A stretch of 64,000 nt of DNA, from assembly GCA_018813765.1 (NCBI GenBank), contig JAHJBC010000013.1:62001-126000 (forward strand), in the 5' to 3' direction. This document shows, piece after piece, positions 5,054 through 44,299 of this stretch. The notes beneath the pieces were generated by a model. It made no database searches, was not told the origin of the DNA, and worked only from the letters and a program-made list of their open reading frames with translations. How positions within the stretch are numbered: position 1 is the stretch's first letter; each line of letters starts with the position of its first letter. The position numbers and the translations under genes are program-made. The DNA comes from Gammaproteobacteria bacterium (GTDB taxonomy: Bacteria > Pseudomonadota > Gammaproteobacteria > Burkholderiales > Gallionellaceae).

Positions 5054-6733
5054 ATGAGCAGCAAAGAACCCACATCCGCCGCCCCCGTTTCCAATTTCAT
5101 CCGCACCATCATCGATGGCGATCTCGCCAGCGGCAAGCACCAGAGCATCGTCACGCGCTTCCCGCCCGAGCCCAACGGTTACCTGCACGTCGGCCATGCC
5201 AAATCCATCTGCCTCAACTTCGGACTGGCACGCGATTATCAGGGCAAATGCAACCTGCGCTTCGACGACACCAACCCGGAGAAGGAAAGCGAGGAATACG
5301 CGCAGTCCATCCAGGACGACGTGCGCTGGCTGGGCTTCCAGTGGAACGGCGAAGTGCGCTGGGCTTCGGACTATTTCGATGCGCTGTACGACTTCGCGGT
5401 CGAACTCATCAACAAGGGGCTGGCCTATGTGGACGACCTGACGCCCGAGCAGATGCGCGAATATCGCGGAACGCTCAAGGAAGCAGGCAAGAACAGCCCC
5501 AACCGCGATAGTTCAGTTGCCAAGAACCTCGACCTGTTCACGCGCATGCGCAACGGCGAATTCGCCGACGGCGCCATGGTGCTGCGTGCCAAGATCGACA
5601 TGAGCTCGCCCAATATCAACATGCGCGACCCGGTCATCTACCGCATCAAACGCGCCCACCATATCCGCACCGGCGACAAGTGGTGCATCTACCCGATGTA
5701 CGACTACACCCATTGCATCTCCGACGCGCTGGAAGGCATCACCCACTCCATCTGCACGCTGGAGTTCGAAGACCACCGTCCGTTGTACGACTGGGTGCTG
5801 GACAACATCACCATCCCCTGCCACCCGCGCCAGTACGAGTTCTCGCGCCTGGAACTGCACTACACCATCACCAGCAAGCGCAAGCTGCTGCAACTGGTGA
5901 ACGAGAAGAAGGTGAACGGCTGGGACGACCCGCGCATGCCCACCATCTCCGGCATGCGCCGCCGCGGCTACACGCCGGAAGGCATCCGCGAATTCGCCAA
6001 GCGCATCGGCGTCTCCAAGAGCGAGAACATCGTCGACATGGCGATCATGGAAGGCGCGATCCGCGAAGACCTGGAATTGCGCGCTCCGCGCGTGATGGCC
6101 ATCGTCAACCCGCTCAAGGTCACGATTACGAACGCCGAAGGCGCACAGACGCGTGAAGCGGACTTCCATCCCAACGTGCCCGAGCTGGGCAAACGCGTGG
6201 TGCCGTTCGGCAAAGACCTGCTCATCGAAGCCGACGACTTCGCCGAAGTGCCGCCCGCAGGCTGGAAGCGCCTCACCCTCGGCGGCGAGATCCGCCTGCG
6301 CCACAGCTACGTGATGCGCTGCAACGAAGCGGTGAAGGATGCTTCCGGCAACATCATCGAACTCAAGTGCAACATCGACCACGACACGCTGGGCAAGAAC
6401 CCGGAAGGTCGCAAGGTCAAAGGCGTCATCCACTTCCTGTCGCGCGAACATGCGCTACCCGCCGAGATTCGTTTGTATGACCGCCTGTTCACCGTGCCCG
6501 AGCCGGATGCCGACAAGGAAAAGGACTTCCTCGAATTCATGAATCCGCATTCGCTGGAAGTCGTGCAGGGTTGGGTGGAAGCCAGCGTAAAGGATGCCGC
6601 GCCGGAAACGCGTTACCAGTTCGAGCGTCTGGGCTATTTTGTGACTGATCGCCGCGAGCATCAGCCCGGGGGGAAACTGGTGTTCAACCGCACGGTGACC
6701 TTGCGGGATTCCTGGGCAAAAGAACAAAACTAA
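5054..6733 (+). CDS. glnS: Glutaminyl-tRNA synthetase
   Basis: Class I aminoacyl-tRNA synthetase that charges tRNA-Gln in the cytoplasm. The ATG at 5054 gives 559 residues, the usual length, beginning [20 protein letters not shown]; the frame is open upstream but that part reads antisense to the TPR gene. The HIGH-type motif is [15 protein letters not shown], followed by [10 protein letters not shown], and the second ATP-binding loop is VSKSENIV. The SKRKL segment with [10 protein letters not shown] is characteristic of GlnRS. The C-terminal anticodon-binding barrels are complete. It is followed 2 bases after the stop by a palindromic repeat. Confidence 0.97.
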
Positions 6734-6734
6734 C

Positions 6735-6848
6735 CGTCATACCGGCGAAGGCCGGTATCCAGTTAGTTATATAGCCCGTGCGTAGCGCGGACAAAACCAA
6801 CGGCATTTTTGATAAATGCGCTGGATACCGGCCTTCGCCGGTATGACG
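6735..6848. repeat. GTCATACCGG palindromic repeat, left copy beside the GIY-YIG gene
   Basis: A 114-bp unit bounded by near-perfect 28-bp inverted ends (CGTCATACCGGCG... and ...CGCCGGTATGACG). Each end is itself a hairpin (ATACCGGC-GAAG-GCCGGTAT). The 58-bp interior (6763-6820) reappears in inverted orientation inside the repeat at 7161-7275, so the two units form a large inverted repeat around the gene at 6868-7158. Confidence 0.92.
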
Positions 6849-6867
6849 AAGAGCGGGAGGTGGCTGG

Positions 6868-7158
6868 ATGAGCAAACTGCCTTGTGTTTATGTGCTCTCC
6901 AGCAAGCGCAACGGAACTCTGTACATTGGAGTTACTTCGGATTTGGTCAAGCGGGTATGGGAACACAAGGATCACGTTGTCGATGGTTTCACCAAACAGT
7001 ATGGCGTGGATCAACTGGTCTGGTATGAAGTGCATGAAACCATGGAGTCTGCTATCCAACGCGAGAAAGCGCTCAAGGAATGGCAGCGAGTATGGAAGAT
7101 AAAGTTGATCGAAGAGAATAATCCCGACTGGAAGGATTTGTACGACACGATATGTTAA
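6868..7158 (+). CDS. Small GIY-YIG nuclease-domain protein
   Basis: A 96-residue single-domain protein of the UvrC/URI-type GIY-YIG superfamily. Visible motifs are CVYVLSS (the GIY strand, residues 6-12), LYIGVT (YIG, 18-23), Arg29 and His33 in the following helix, Glu59-Glu60 region and the terminal Asn85-Asp87 segment. Length fits the YhbQ-like solo family, whose members are structure-type endonucleases of uncertain role. The ATG at 6868 is preceded by GGGAGGTGG. The gene is bracketed by inverted palindromic repeats (6735-6848, 7161-7275), suggesting that it acts on or travels with them; this is inference. Its base composition is lower in GC than glnS and cysS. Confidence 0.88.
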   Translation: MSKLPCVYVLSSKRNGTLYIGVTSDLVKRVWEHKDHVVDGFTKQYGVDQLVWYEVHETMESAIQREKALKEWQRVWKIKLIEENNPDWKDLYDTIC

Positions 7159-7160
7159 GC

Positions 7161-7275
7161 CGTCATACCGGCGAAGGCCGGTATCCAGCGGGTTTATAAA
7201 AATATGCCGTTGGTTTTGTCCATGCTGCGCACGGGCTATTTGACCAACTGGATACCGGCCTGCGCCGGTATGACG
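7161..7275. repeat. GTCATACCGG palindromic repeat, right copy (inverted)
   Basis: A 115-bp unit with the same 28-bp inverted ends as the copy at 6735-6848. Its interior is the reverse complement of that copy's interior; the shared core includes ATGCCGTTGGTTTTGTCC without mismatch. It begins 2 bases after the stop of the GIY-YIG gene. Confidence 0.92.
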
Positions 7276-7296: not shown

Positions 7297-7324
7297 CTGG
7301 ATACCGGCCTGCGCCGGTATGACG
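7297..7324. repeat. Extra half-unit of the GTCATACCGG repeat
   Basis: A single 28-bp end (CTGGATACCGG...TATGACG) lies 21 bases after the right copy and 14 bases before the cysS start. It forms one hairpin and has no partner of its own, so it may be the remainder of a deleted second element. Confidence 0.85.
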
Positions 7325-7338
7325 GCACAGGAAAAGAA

Positions 7339-8784
7339 ATGCTGAAGATCTACAACACCCTCGCCCGCGACAAGCAGGAATTCAAACCCATCGACGCCAA
7401 CAAGGTGCGCATGTACGTATGCGGCATGACCGTGTACGACTACTGCCACCTCGGCCATGCGCGCGTGATGGTGGTGTTCGACATGGTGCAGCGCTGGTTC
7501 AAGGCTTCCGGCTACGACGTGACCTACGTGCGCAACATCACCGACATCGACGACAAGATCATCAAGCGCGCGGCCGAGAACAAGGAATCCATCCATACGC
7601 TGACGCAACGCTTCATCGATGCCATGCACGAGGATGCCGATGCGCTCGGCGTGCAGCGCCCCGACCACGAACCGCGCGCTACACAGTACATCCCGCAGAT
7701 GCTGGAAATGGTCGAACAACTGGAAAAGAATGGCCTGGCCTACAAAGCCGCCGACGGCGACGTGAACTATGCCGTGCGCAAGTTCGACGGCTACGGCAAG
7801 CTTTCCGGCAAATCGCTGGAAGACCTGCGCGCCGGCGAGCGCGTGGATGTGGCCAGCGACAAGAACGATCCGCTCGACTTCGTGCTGTGGAAGCACGCCA
7901 AGGACAGCGAAGCTGACGAAGTGAAATGGGATTCGAAATGGGGCAAGGGTCGTCCCGGCTGGCATCTGGAATGTTCGGCGATGGGTTCCGAGCTGCTGGG
8001 CAAGCATTTCGACATCCACGGCGGCGGCGCCGACCTGCAGTTCCCGCACCACGAGAACGAGATCGCCCAATCCGAAGGCGCGCATGGATGCCAGTACGTG
8101 AACTACTGGATGCACAACGGATTCGTGCGCGTGGACAACGAGAAGATGTCCAAAAGCCTGGGCAACTTCTTCACGATTCGTGAGGTTCTCAAGAAATACG
8201 ACGCCGAAGTGGTGCGCTTCTTCATCCTGCGCGCGCACTACCGCAGTCCGCTGAATTATTCAGACCAGCATCTGGACGACGCCAAGGGGGCGTTGACGCG
8301 GCTTTATACCGCGCTCAAGAGCGCTCCCTCACCCTCAGTCCCTCTCCCAGGGGGAGAGGGAAGCCAACTCCCTTCCCCCTCTGGGGGAAGGGCTGGGGAT
8401 GAGGGAGCGCTCGATTGGAATACACCCTACGCCCAGCGCTTCAAAGCCGCCATGGACGACGACTTCAACACCCCCGAAGCCGTCGCCGTGCTGTTCGACC
8501 TCGCCAACGAAGTGAACCGCAATCCATCGGAAGTAGCGGTTGCGCAACTCAAGGCATTGGGCGGTGTGCTGGGTCTGCTGCAACGCGATGCGCAGGAATT
8601 CCTGCAAGGCGGGGCTGGCGAGGGGGGAATGGATGATGCCGCGATCAACGCACAGATCGAAGCCCGCATCGCCGCCAAGAAAGCCAAGAACTTCGCCGAG
8701 GCGGACCGCATACGCAAGGAACTGCTGGAAGCGGGCATCGTGCTGGAAGATACTGCGCAGGGTACGAGCTGGCGCAGGGCGTAG
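7339..8784 (+). CDS. cysS: Cysteinyl-tRNA synthetase with an in-frame repeat-derived insertion
   Basis: Class I synthetase charging tRNA-Cys. The N-terminal zinc-site Cys and HIGH motif ([16 protein letters not shown]), the zinc ligands in WHLECS and [11 protein letters not shown], and KMSKSLGNF are all intact. At 481 residues it is about 20 longer than usual. The surplus is a low-complexity stretch at residues ~327-358 ([14 protein letters not shown]...GGRAGDEGA) encoded by a palindromic repeat at 8319-8412, placed in the linker between the catalytic part and the DALR anticodon-binding domain (which resumes at DFNTPEA). The frame is maintained, so the enzyme is probably functional. Confidence 0.96.
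8319..8412. repeat. Palindromic repeat inserted in frame in cysS
   Basis: The 94-bp segment has 13-bp inverted ends (GAGCGCTCCCTCA / TGAGGGAGCGCTC) and two internal hairpins, CCCTCTCCC-AG-GGGGAGAGGG-like and CCTTCCCCCTCTGGGGGAAGG. It is flanked by AGCGCT on both sides. It resembles the C-rich palindromes in addB and between murA and hisG. Confidence 0.88.
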
Positions 8785-8869: not shown

Positions 8870-9118
8870 ATGAAAACATGGCAATTGCAGGAAGCGAAGG
8901 GCAAATTCAGCGAAGTGGTGAAAAGCGCCCAAAGCAAGGGGCCGCAGAACATTACCGTGCACGGCGAACCTGTCGCTGTATTGATCTCCCGTCGTGACTA
9001 CCTGAAGCTCATCAATCCAAAACCCAGTTTTGTCGAGTTGATGCGATCGTCACCACTCGTGGGGAGCGATCTCAACATTACTCGCGATCAAACCCCGACG
9101 CGCAAAATCAAGCTATGA
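8870..9118 (+). CDS. Phd/YefM-family antitoxin
   Basis: An 82-residue protein whose N-terminal half matches the Phd/YefM fold (WQLQEAKGKFSEVVKSAQ, then ITVHGEPVAVLISRRDYLKL), the DNA-binding dimer domain of type II antitoxins. The variable C-terminal half (residues ~50-82) would wrap the toxin. It is preceded by GGGGGCG and overlaps the toxin gene by ATGA (9115-9118), so the two are translationally coupled. The palindrome at 8839-8857 is the likely autoregulatory operator. Confidence 0.9.
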   Translation: MKTWQLQEAKGKFSEVVKSAQSKGPQNITVHGEPVAVLISRRDYLKLINPKPSFVELMRSSPLVGSDLNITRDQTPTRKIKL

Positions 9119-9525
9119 GCTATCTGCTCGATACCAACGTCATTTCAGAACTGGTACGGCCCAAGCCGTCCAAGGCAGTCCTGGACTGGTTCGAGAACAT
9201 CCCTTCGGAAGCATTGCATGTCAGCGTGTTGACCCTGGGCGAAATACGCAAAGGGGTCGAGCAGATGCCGGACGGGGCGAGACGCGAGAAACTCAGGTTG
9301 TGGCTCGAGCATGATCTGGCTGACTGGTTCGGGGCCAGAATATTGCCGGTGAATATGTCTGTTGCTGATCGTTGGGGCAGGCTGCTTGCGTTGATGGGGC
9401 GACCCGTACCCAGCATAGACAGCTTGCTGGCGGCCACGGCGCTTCATTTCGAATTGCGCCTTGTTACGCGGAACGAAAAAGATTTCGAATATCCGGGATT
9501 GGAAATCGTCAATCCGTGGGGCTGA
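9115..9525 (+). CDS. PIN-domain ribonuclease toxin (VapC family)
   Basis: A 136-residue PIN-domain protein. The acidic residues expected at the active site are visible: Asp6 in YLLDTNVISEL, Glu44 in LTLGEIRKGVE, Asp100-type in SIDSLLAATALHF and a final Asp in TRNEKDFE. VapC toxins are magnesium-dependent RNases that cleave tRNA or rRNA when released from the antitoxin. It is paired with the Phd-type antitoxin upstream and ends 4 bases from the convergent FecR gene. Confidence 0.92.
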   Translation: MSYLLDTNVISELVRPKPSKAVLDWFENIPSEALHVSVLTLGEIRKGVEQMPDGARREKLRLWLEHDLADWFGARILPVNMSVADRWGRLLALMGRPVPSIDSLLAATALHFELRLVTRNEKDFEYPGLEIVNPWG

Positions 9526-13279: not shown

Positions 13280-13323
13280 TCTTCGCTGTGTTATCAGTTC
13301 GTCATAAAGCATCTCTAATTTTT

Positions 13324-13436
13324 CGTCACACCGGCGTAGGCCGGTGTCCAGTCAAAATATTGGTTGCAGTGCAACGCACTGACGTAACTGCATTATTAAA
13401 TAAAAACGCTGGATTCCGGCCTTCGCCGGAATGACG
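13324..13436. repeat. Palindromic repeat, GTCAT family, divergent copy
   Basis: A 113-bp unit with the outer pattern CGTCACACCGGCG...CGCCGGAATGACG. The two ends differ (ACACC...GGTGT versus ATTCC...GGAAT) but each end still folds on itself, because changes on one side of the hairpin are matched on the other. It lies between the brnT remnant and the mshJ-like gene. Confidence 0.88.
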
Positions 13437-13480
13437 AAATTTGAATTCTTAGAGATGCCCATAAGCATTACGGTAGTCGT

Positions 13481-44173: not shown

Positions 44174-44299
44174 CGTCATTCCGGCGCAGGCCGGAATCCA
44201 GTCAATCGACAAATCCGCACAGCGGACAAAGCCATGGAGCAGTCTCGCTTCGCGAGAATTACTCTATTTTACTGGATTCCGGCCTGCGCCGGAATGACG
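44174..44299. repeat. GTCATTCCGG palindromic repeat between addB and addA
   Basis: A 126-bp unit with ends CGTCATTCCGGCG... and ...CGCCGGAATGACG. Its interior contains GCGGACAAAGCCAT, similar to GCGGACAAAACCAA in the copy at 6735-6848, and a separate hairpin CTCGCTTCGCGAG. It occupies nearly all of the 168-base gap between addB and addA. Confidence 0.9.

Follow-up and report, generated by a model that had tools for sequence, protein, structure and literature searches.

A stand-alone GIY-YIG nuclease gene boxed by inverted pairs of CGTC-tagged palindromes, a candidate REPtron-like unit with a matched genomic repeat family

The stretch of DNA analysed here (hereafter the window) comprises 64,000 nucleotides of contig JAHJBC010000013.1, from a gammaproteobacterium assigned to the Gallionellaceae. 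It contains a small gene for a stand-alone GIY-YIG nuclease, enclosed by two inverted pairs of a 28-bp repetitive extragenic palindrome (REP) that bears a CGTC tag. This gene, its repeats and their counterparts in other genomes are the subject of the present work. The unit and the repeat next to it are laid out as follows.

6735..7275, forward strand: whole unit, consisting of REP pair, GIY-YIG gene and REP pair (from REP matches and homology to the unit at other loci)
6868..7158, forward strand: stand-alone GIY-YIG nuclease gene, 96 aa (from Pfam, alignment and an AlphaFold2 model)
6735..6848, no strand: upstream unit, an inverted pair of 28-bp CGTC REPs (6735-6762 forward, 6821-6848 reverse)
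7161..7275, no strand: downstream unit, an inverted pair of 28-bp CGTC REPs (7161-7188 forward, 7248-7275 reverse)
7297..7324, reverse strand: solo CGTC REP

The initial annotation had placed a 96-codon GIY-YIG gene between two palindromic units of ~114 bp, and this layout was borne out. Four REP ends were found, delimiting units of 114 bp (upstream) and 115 bp (downstream), and the 96-aa protein matched the Pfam GIY-YIG family (E = 3.8e-16) and no further Pfam domain. The 28-bp repeat, CGTCATACCGGCGNAGGCCGGTATCCAG, is a hairpin whose two ends carry CGTC and CCAG. The consensus of the REP end at the gene is CGTCATACCGGCG(A/C)AGGCCGGTATCCAG, present in four copies with a fifth at 7297-7324 on the reverse strand, where a half-unit had been annotated. 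The sequence that follows this solo REP resembles that found after the single pair of relatives, and the REP is therefore perhaps the right end of an older pair on the side of the downstream cysS-like gene. As single strands, the upstream and downstream units are predicted to fold into long hairpins (z -11.6 and z -9.2, respectively). With up to 8 mismatches allowed, nine REP-end sites occur on the two strands of the window, compared with 0, 0, 0, 0 and 1 in five single-base shuffles searched on one strand. Across the whole 3.14-Mb genome, a REP pattern allowing stem variants gave 147 matches (123 with a CCGG stem and 24 with a CCCG stem) and the reversed control pattern gave none. Taken together, the counts in the window and in the genome indicate that these sites are not due to chance.

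Two further REP pairs in the window contain no gene.

13324..13436, no strand: gene-less REP pair of the same kind, with ends 2-3 bases off those of the unit
44174..44299, no strand: gene-less REP pair between two addB-/addA-like open reading frames (ORFs)

Both had been described as related to the gene-flanking units; they are indeed present, and the relationship is confined to their ends, the interiors being different. The ORFs beside 44174-44299 are presumably addB and addA, judging by their appearance. The same pattern is seen genome-wide: the interiors of 24 REP pairs, chosen as pairs (20 elsewhere in the genome and the four in the window), fall into similarity groups of 12, 3 and 2 plus 7 singletons, with small hairpins inside, and the ends are nearly constant, so that ends are better kept than interiors. 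The pair at 13324 is nested in an outer inverted repeat, GCATCTCTAA ... TTAGAGATGC (window 13305-13465), and a similar arrangement was observed at locus L192. An RNA role for the repeat pairs was considered and set aside, as there was no Rfam match at gathering score within the window.

The two unit interiors around the nuclease gene align with each other in opposite orientation with about 10 differing positions (counted by eye), as annotated. This orientation holds for the window and is not a conserved trait: in genome G054 both interiors point in the same direction, and G029 has the other arrangement (by eye). The recurrent feature among relatives is that the REP ends stand in inverted order. 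When the window unit is compared by eye with loci L127 and L133, the relative directions of the REP-pair interiors likewise differ between genomes, as if a REP pair could invert between its own ends.

Five residues of the protein, Y8, Y19, R29, E66 and N85, are invariant in all 118 aligned homologues; they are the catalytic positions of the fold. The AlphaFold2 model (pLDDT 93) had UPF0213 as its best PDB match (E 1.6e-3), followed by the Slx1 and UvrC GIY-YIG domains, and no PDB match reached E ≤ 0.001. Weak PHROG and NCBIfam matches were to GIY-YIG homing endonucleases. PADLOC gave no match that would indicate a defence role, and carriage by phage was discounted since the phage collection yielded no match and the viral contigs no relative. 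In the plasmid collection 33 records matched; among the matches listed were large alphaproteobacterial replicons, and, judging by their length, we took two records from Neisseria gonorrhoeae and one from Aeromonas caviae to be chromosomes filed as plasmids. On plasmid AZO_p3 of Azospirillum lipoferum (L222), a GIY-YIG gene boxed by REP pairs has sufB on one side and sufC on the other, and so interrupts the suf operon. Broken copies of the nuclease, with internal stops or split matches, were observed in G141, G126, G123, G149, G003, G121 and G030, most of them still near REPs.

The pairing of gene and repeats is not confined to the window. Homologues were examined as the best 80 of 124 confirmed, in contigs representing one genome per species. 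A CGTC hairpin lies at most 300 bp from the gene in 76 of these 80 loci, on both sides in 60, and in the outer-inverted layout in 56. REP density is 4.63/kb within 300 bp of the gene and 0.14/kb beyond 600 bp, a 33-fold drop. For random positions in the same loci, the corresponding frequencies are 6.9% for any REP, 0.05% for REPs on both sides and 0.006% for the outer-inverted layout. As controls we used 20 of 46 listed remote GIY-YIG matches (30-36% identity) from the same bacterial family, picked for short open frames; CGTC REPs accompanied 0 of the 20, and no repeats of other types were found there. The association across genomes implied by the initial annotation is thus substantiated. The same data bear on the simplest alternative, in which the gene is a passive neighbour that merely lies in repeat-rich intergenic DNA. 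REPs are common in the window genome, which would suit this explanation; the unflanked state of all 20 remote genes, the fall in REP density away from the gene and the class-by-class match described below all oppose it. We give it almost no credence, the remote GIY-YIG and random-position controls having ruled it out as an account of the association.

A second set consisted of 20 family homologues without a locus so far, taken down the list with broken or shortest ones mostly deferred. Twelve of them have CGTC hairpins, and eight (L154 and L156-L162) have a different, GTCAT-tagged palindrome, seven of the form GTCATTGCGA..GCAATCCAG and one, at L162, of the form GTCATTTCGA..GGAAATCTT. The GTCATTGCGA class came to light when homologues lacking CGTC hairpins were screened for a different sort of outer inverted repeat. 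Since homologues without CGTC hairpins carry other GTCAT-tagged palindromes, the pairing of enzyme and repeat is wider than CGTC REPs. Eleven loci fetched later (broken, short or remote), which were counted only in the 150-genome class count below, include six with CGTC hairpins and two with the GTCATTGCGA type. The hosts of homologues beside such repeats belong to eight named phyla, and host names may err because many of the records are metagenome-assembled. In several relatives we also observed a second palindromic element, ~60-90 bp long (CTAGCCANNNGACTAAG ... GGTTAT and variants of it), within repeats of the CGTC or GTCATTGCGA type, where it splits the host repeat in or near the hairpin loop (L127 ~992-1008, L128 ~1912-1928, L252 in the addB-addA gap of G037, L157 and L161). 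It is absent from the window.

The class of repeat follows the class of enzyme. The window genome has two paralogues: the window gene is accompanied by CCGG-stem REPs and the C9 paralogue, whose neighbours we take to be trpC-like and proA-like, by CCCG-stem REPs. All four genomes with both gene types show the same division, the 85-100% identical copy being CCGG-flanked and the 60-65% identical copy CCCG-flanked. A protein tree was built from 123 homologues, 13 of the 136 loci being dropped because their protein segment was identical to that of another. Over the 97 rows with a CGTC stem, the stem core (CCGG or CCCG) changes 6 times on this tree, compared with a mean of 32 and a minimum of 24 in 200 shuffles, and a mean of 30 and a minimum of 22 when shuffled within phylum. 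Host phylum is also structured, though weakly, with 18 changes in the 64 rows of known phylum (shuffles: mean 23, minimum 21). A weaker test, asking whether the nearest relative in another phylum has the same stem core, gave 28 of 57 where 20 were expected. A homologue from Neisseria gonorrhoeae, 62% identical to the window protein and itself located beside CCCG-type CGTC REPs (dRS3-type), has CCCG-flanked genes as all 8 of its nearest relatives in the set.

As flanks travel with the gene, repeats were also counted away from it, in 150 sampled family genomes (which overlap with those of the 80-locus set) after removal of the gene-flanking copies. The 20 genomes with the CCGG-flanked gene had a median of 31.5 CCGG REPs and the remaining 130 genomes a median of 1; for CCCG REPs, the medians were 14 among the 25 genomes with the CCCG-flanked gene and 2 among the remaining 125. 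When genomes were permuted within genus, each matched class gave p = 5e-5, and the cross tests gave p = 0.54 and 0.22. For the third class, GTCATTGCGA..GCAATCCAG, the median was 33 in 7 carriers and 0 in the other 143 genomes, among which the further third-type loci of G120 and G115 were left as non-carriers. That the gene and its repeats form a matched pair is well supported by these data.

The match between enzyme and repeat also bears on whether some other enzyme moves the CGTC repeats, such as an IS200/IS605-type transposase acting in trans, with the nuclease only restraining or cutting them. There are five Y1-transposase matches in the window genome, three of them above the cut-off; nuclease-free genomes can hold many REPs; and the passages cited from PMC3733652 suggest other transposases as possible mobilisers of CGTC REPs. 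However, none of the five Y1 stretches has a CGTC REP of the gene-flanking type, the single finder match (L272) being unlike one, and on this ground the Y1 transposases of the genome were rejected as makers of the unit. According to the same paper, CGTC units flank no such transposase gene, and a transposase acting in trans sits poorly with a repeat class that tracks the nuclease class. We therefore consider this explanation improbable.

The unit lies between two conserved neighbours, whose names were taken over from the initial annotation.

5054..6733, forward strand: glnS-like gene, upstream neighbour (from translation, with the start set at the first aligned methionine; conserved neighbour)
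7339..8784, forward strand: cysS-like gene, downstream neighbour (from translation; conserved neighbour)

After cysS, at 8870-9525 of the window, are two overlapping small ORFs that we take to resemble an antitoxin and PIN-type toxin pair. The CCGG-flanked gene occupies the glnS-cysS gap in 13 of its 20 carriers (12 by a full-length match and one, G003, by a split match), and all 13 copies have at least 2 REPs within 320 bp. Conservation of the gene in this gap without repeats, which the initial annotation had named as one observation that would speak against a mobile unit, was thus not encountered among these copies. In G074, G056 and G022 the gene, boxed in the same way, follows a ybbA-like gene, a position from which it is absent in the fetched stretches of 15 other genomes, including that of the window. 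In G045, G036, G077 and G136 the CCGG-flanked gene is at other sites.

Comparison of the window unit with seven loci situated elsewhere (L013, L016, L095, L096, L011, L017 and L018) located the boundaries of the shared sequence. At L013 and L016, which are one site, and at L095, homology covers the whole unit and stops within 0-4 bp of both outer REP ends. At L096 and L011 it ends at the right outer REP only, and at L017 and L018 little beyond the gene aligns. Compared with each other, L095 and L011 are homologous over the full span between the outer REP ends, within ±3 bp. Four of the 20 carriers, G074, G056, G022 and G045 (L013, L016, L096 and L011), have a large helicase-like gene (named by eye) next to the box. 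This gene lies downstream of the right REP pair and is combined with two different left neighbours; as it accompanies the box at two sites, the block moved there may exceed the box, and the region is perhaps a larger mobile or defence block. Comparison thus supports relocation of the box from locus to locus, in some cases perhaps together with further DNA, and probably between phyla as well, a caution being that many of the records concerned are metagenome assemblies.

The initial annotation also raised the prospect of empty sites at the glnS-cysS gap. Among the 28 genomes examined, 5 have a gap of 4-7 bp, G074 has one REP pair and no gene, and the others have different genes with or without a REP pair. 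Short gaps and a single pair therefore exist, though with extra bases and no clean junction. The addB-addA gap was compared in 30 same-genus loci: it is 2 bp in 16, an overlap in 3, occupied by a REP pair in 5 and by other sequence in 6; in G037, one REP of the pair is interrupted. Extra bases lie beside the repeats at these gaps, and the differences may reflect gain or loss.

We lean towards the reading that the nuclease is an Ssn-type enzyme, of the family discussed below, that recognises CGTC REP hairpins, and that the gene and its REP pairs constitute a compact, REPtron-like unit which has moved to new sites and new hosts and taken its repeats along. The hairpin would most likely be recognised as single-stranded DNA, by analogy with related enzymes. 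The data suggest that gene and repeats form, or once formed, a small mobile element. Several observations weigh against this. Among 136 loci in all, duplicates included, 4 have no such repeat nearby, and 3 of the 11 later-fetched loci, which are remote or fragmentary, have neither type. Homology stops at both outer REPs in three of the seven compared loci, two of which share one site, and between L013 and L011 it continues beyond the right REP into the helicase-like gene. Neither a target-site duplication nor a clean junction was found at the glnS-cysS gap, at the addB-addA gap or around the 24 REP pairs, the last inspected by eye. The match between flank and protein on the tree is partly expected from linkage. 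Among 98 genomes without a gene of this nuclease family, 11 hold at least 20 CCGG REPs and 8 hold at least 20 CCCG REPs; 8 of the 143 genomes outside the third-type carriers hold at least 9 third-type repeats, two of these having a third-class locus and another, G140, having 123 third-class copies, though the gene found there has CCCG-type flanks. Gene-less genomes with many repeats imply that the repeats outlast the gene or arrive by other means. Finally, the gene at glnS-cysS is old and under purifying selection, the ratio of nonsynonymous to synonymous substitution (dN/dS) being 0.04-0.11 against eight close relatives (in a ninth pair, synonymous sites were saturated), and this fits a domesticated gene as well.

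Domestication is the basis of the main rival to a REPtron-like unit. The nuclease would recognise REPs to the benefit of its host in handling single-stranded DNA, for example by tuning the uptake or recombination of repeat-marked single strands, which we take to be the role of the neisserial homologue. Unit and repeats would then be kept by selection, and relocation would be a by-product of homologous recombination between REPs. The low dN/dS, the invariant active site and the long stay at glnS-cysS in 13 of 20 carriers are all consistent with such a role, and recombination through REP homology also predicts junctions at REP ends and, at times, larger blocks. Against it stands the patchy presence of the gene, which was found in 52 of the 150 sampled genomes (flank and identity classes, fragments included). 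Together with the broken copies in seven relatives and the weak structure by phylum, this points to a selfish or often-lost gene. We think domestication rather unlikely, and a serious competitor nonetheless.

If the REPtron-like reading is correct, the enzyme would have its own targets in the two REP pairs around the gene, and further ones in the genome's 118 other CCGG-stem REPs. The enzyme may cut REP hairpins where they become single-stranded, at replication forks or within incoming DNA; both the cutting of repeats and the preference for single strands are carried over from the Ssn nucleases discussed below. Cutting would free a REP-ended piece, either one 114-bp pair or the gene together with the pairs on both sides, and strand transfer, or repair relying on REP homology, would then copy this piece into another location. 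A unit of this kind could spread much like free-standing GIY-YIG homing genes. The initial annotation had proposed a nuclease gene that moves its own hairpin repeats. Its association with the repeats, the matched class and the presence at several sites support that proposal in part; the nuclease itself would be a candidate driver of the movement. More broadly, and with less confidence, we propose that GIY-YIG nucleases might be the missing dedicated mobilisers of CGTC REPs. Repeat spread would then be based on single-stranded DNA and would have evolved apart from the HUH enzymes and REP-associated tyrosine transposases (RAYTs), each stem type (CCGG, CCCG, TTGC and others) having an enzyme clade of its own and the gene travelling as a repeat-bounded box. 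If true, this would be a non-HUH way of spreading hairpin repeats and a new class of single-strand nuclease tied to genome evolution. A boxed nuclease with matched specificity and copy number makes the question of the missing enzyme of CGTC REPs directly testable.

The closest known system is the Ssn family, reportedly site-specific single-stranded GIY-YIG nucleases that occur with the neisserial NTS repeat; these enzymes, and their connection with repeats of this kind, have reportedly been known since 2025. The Neisseria gonorrhoeae homologue described above, which may be the characterised Ssn-family protein, is like the window protein a small stand-alone GIY-YIG protein beside CGTC REPs. The window protein has a stand-alone GIY-YIG domain with an intact active site, and its CGTC/NTS-like repeat is present in many genomic copies matched to the enzyme, two features by which Ssn-type systems are defined. 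The difference is that here the REPs are of the CCGG class and come in whole inverted pairs, and that our emphasis is on a relocating unit and on genome-wide copy number. GIY-YIG homing endonucleases share the catalytic domain and differ in that the 96 residues contain no further Pfam domain, no intron or intein was seen around the gene, and the target is a multicopy repeat.

The repeats themselves agree with the CGTC-tagged REPs of Di Nocera et al. 2013 (PMC3733652) in the superfamily traits given in the passages cited, namely the CGTC tag, a palindromic stem starting with AT, a loop of 4-5 nt, a CCA tail and inverted dimers. Those passages state that CGTC REPs lacked a dedicated enzyme in 2013, include among them Neisseria dRS3 and repeats of Rickettsia and many alphaproteobacteria, and equate the neisserial CGTC-1 repeats with dRS3; here, in contrast, a dedicated nuclease gene is boxed by the REPs. 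The cited portion of the GIY-YIG superfamily survey PMC1564403 does not treat the family of the window protein. Among the literature matches listed, no paper joined GIY-YIG nucleases to REPs, and the terms 'GIY-YIG' and 'repetitive extragenic palindromic' co-occurred in none. In the cited passages of PMC3733652, RAYT transposases are the enzymes for GTAG REPs. The REPtrons of these RAYT/TnpA-REP enzymes, as portrayed there and in the cited part of PMC8266576, resemble the unit described here in having one enzyme gene flanked by matched inverted REPs, scattered copies of the repeat, and co-evolution of enzyme and repeat. They differ in enzyme and tag: the sole Pfam family of the window protein is GIY-YIG and not HUH/Y1, and its repeats are tagged CGTC and not GTAG. 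What may be new relative to these systems is that a GIY-YIG gene is enclosed in a REPtron-like box, that this box recurs at several sites, and that repeat copy number matches the enzyme class by class.
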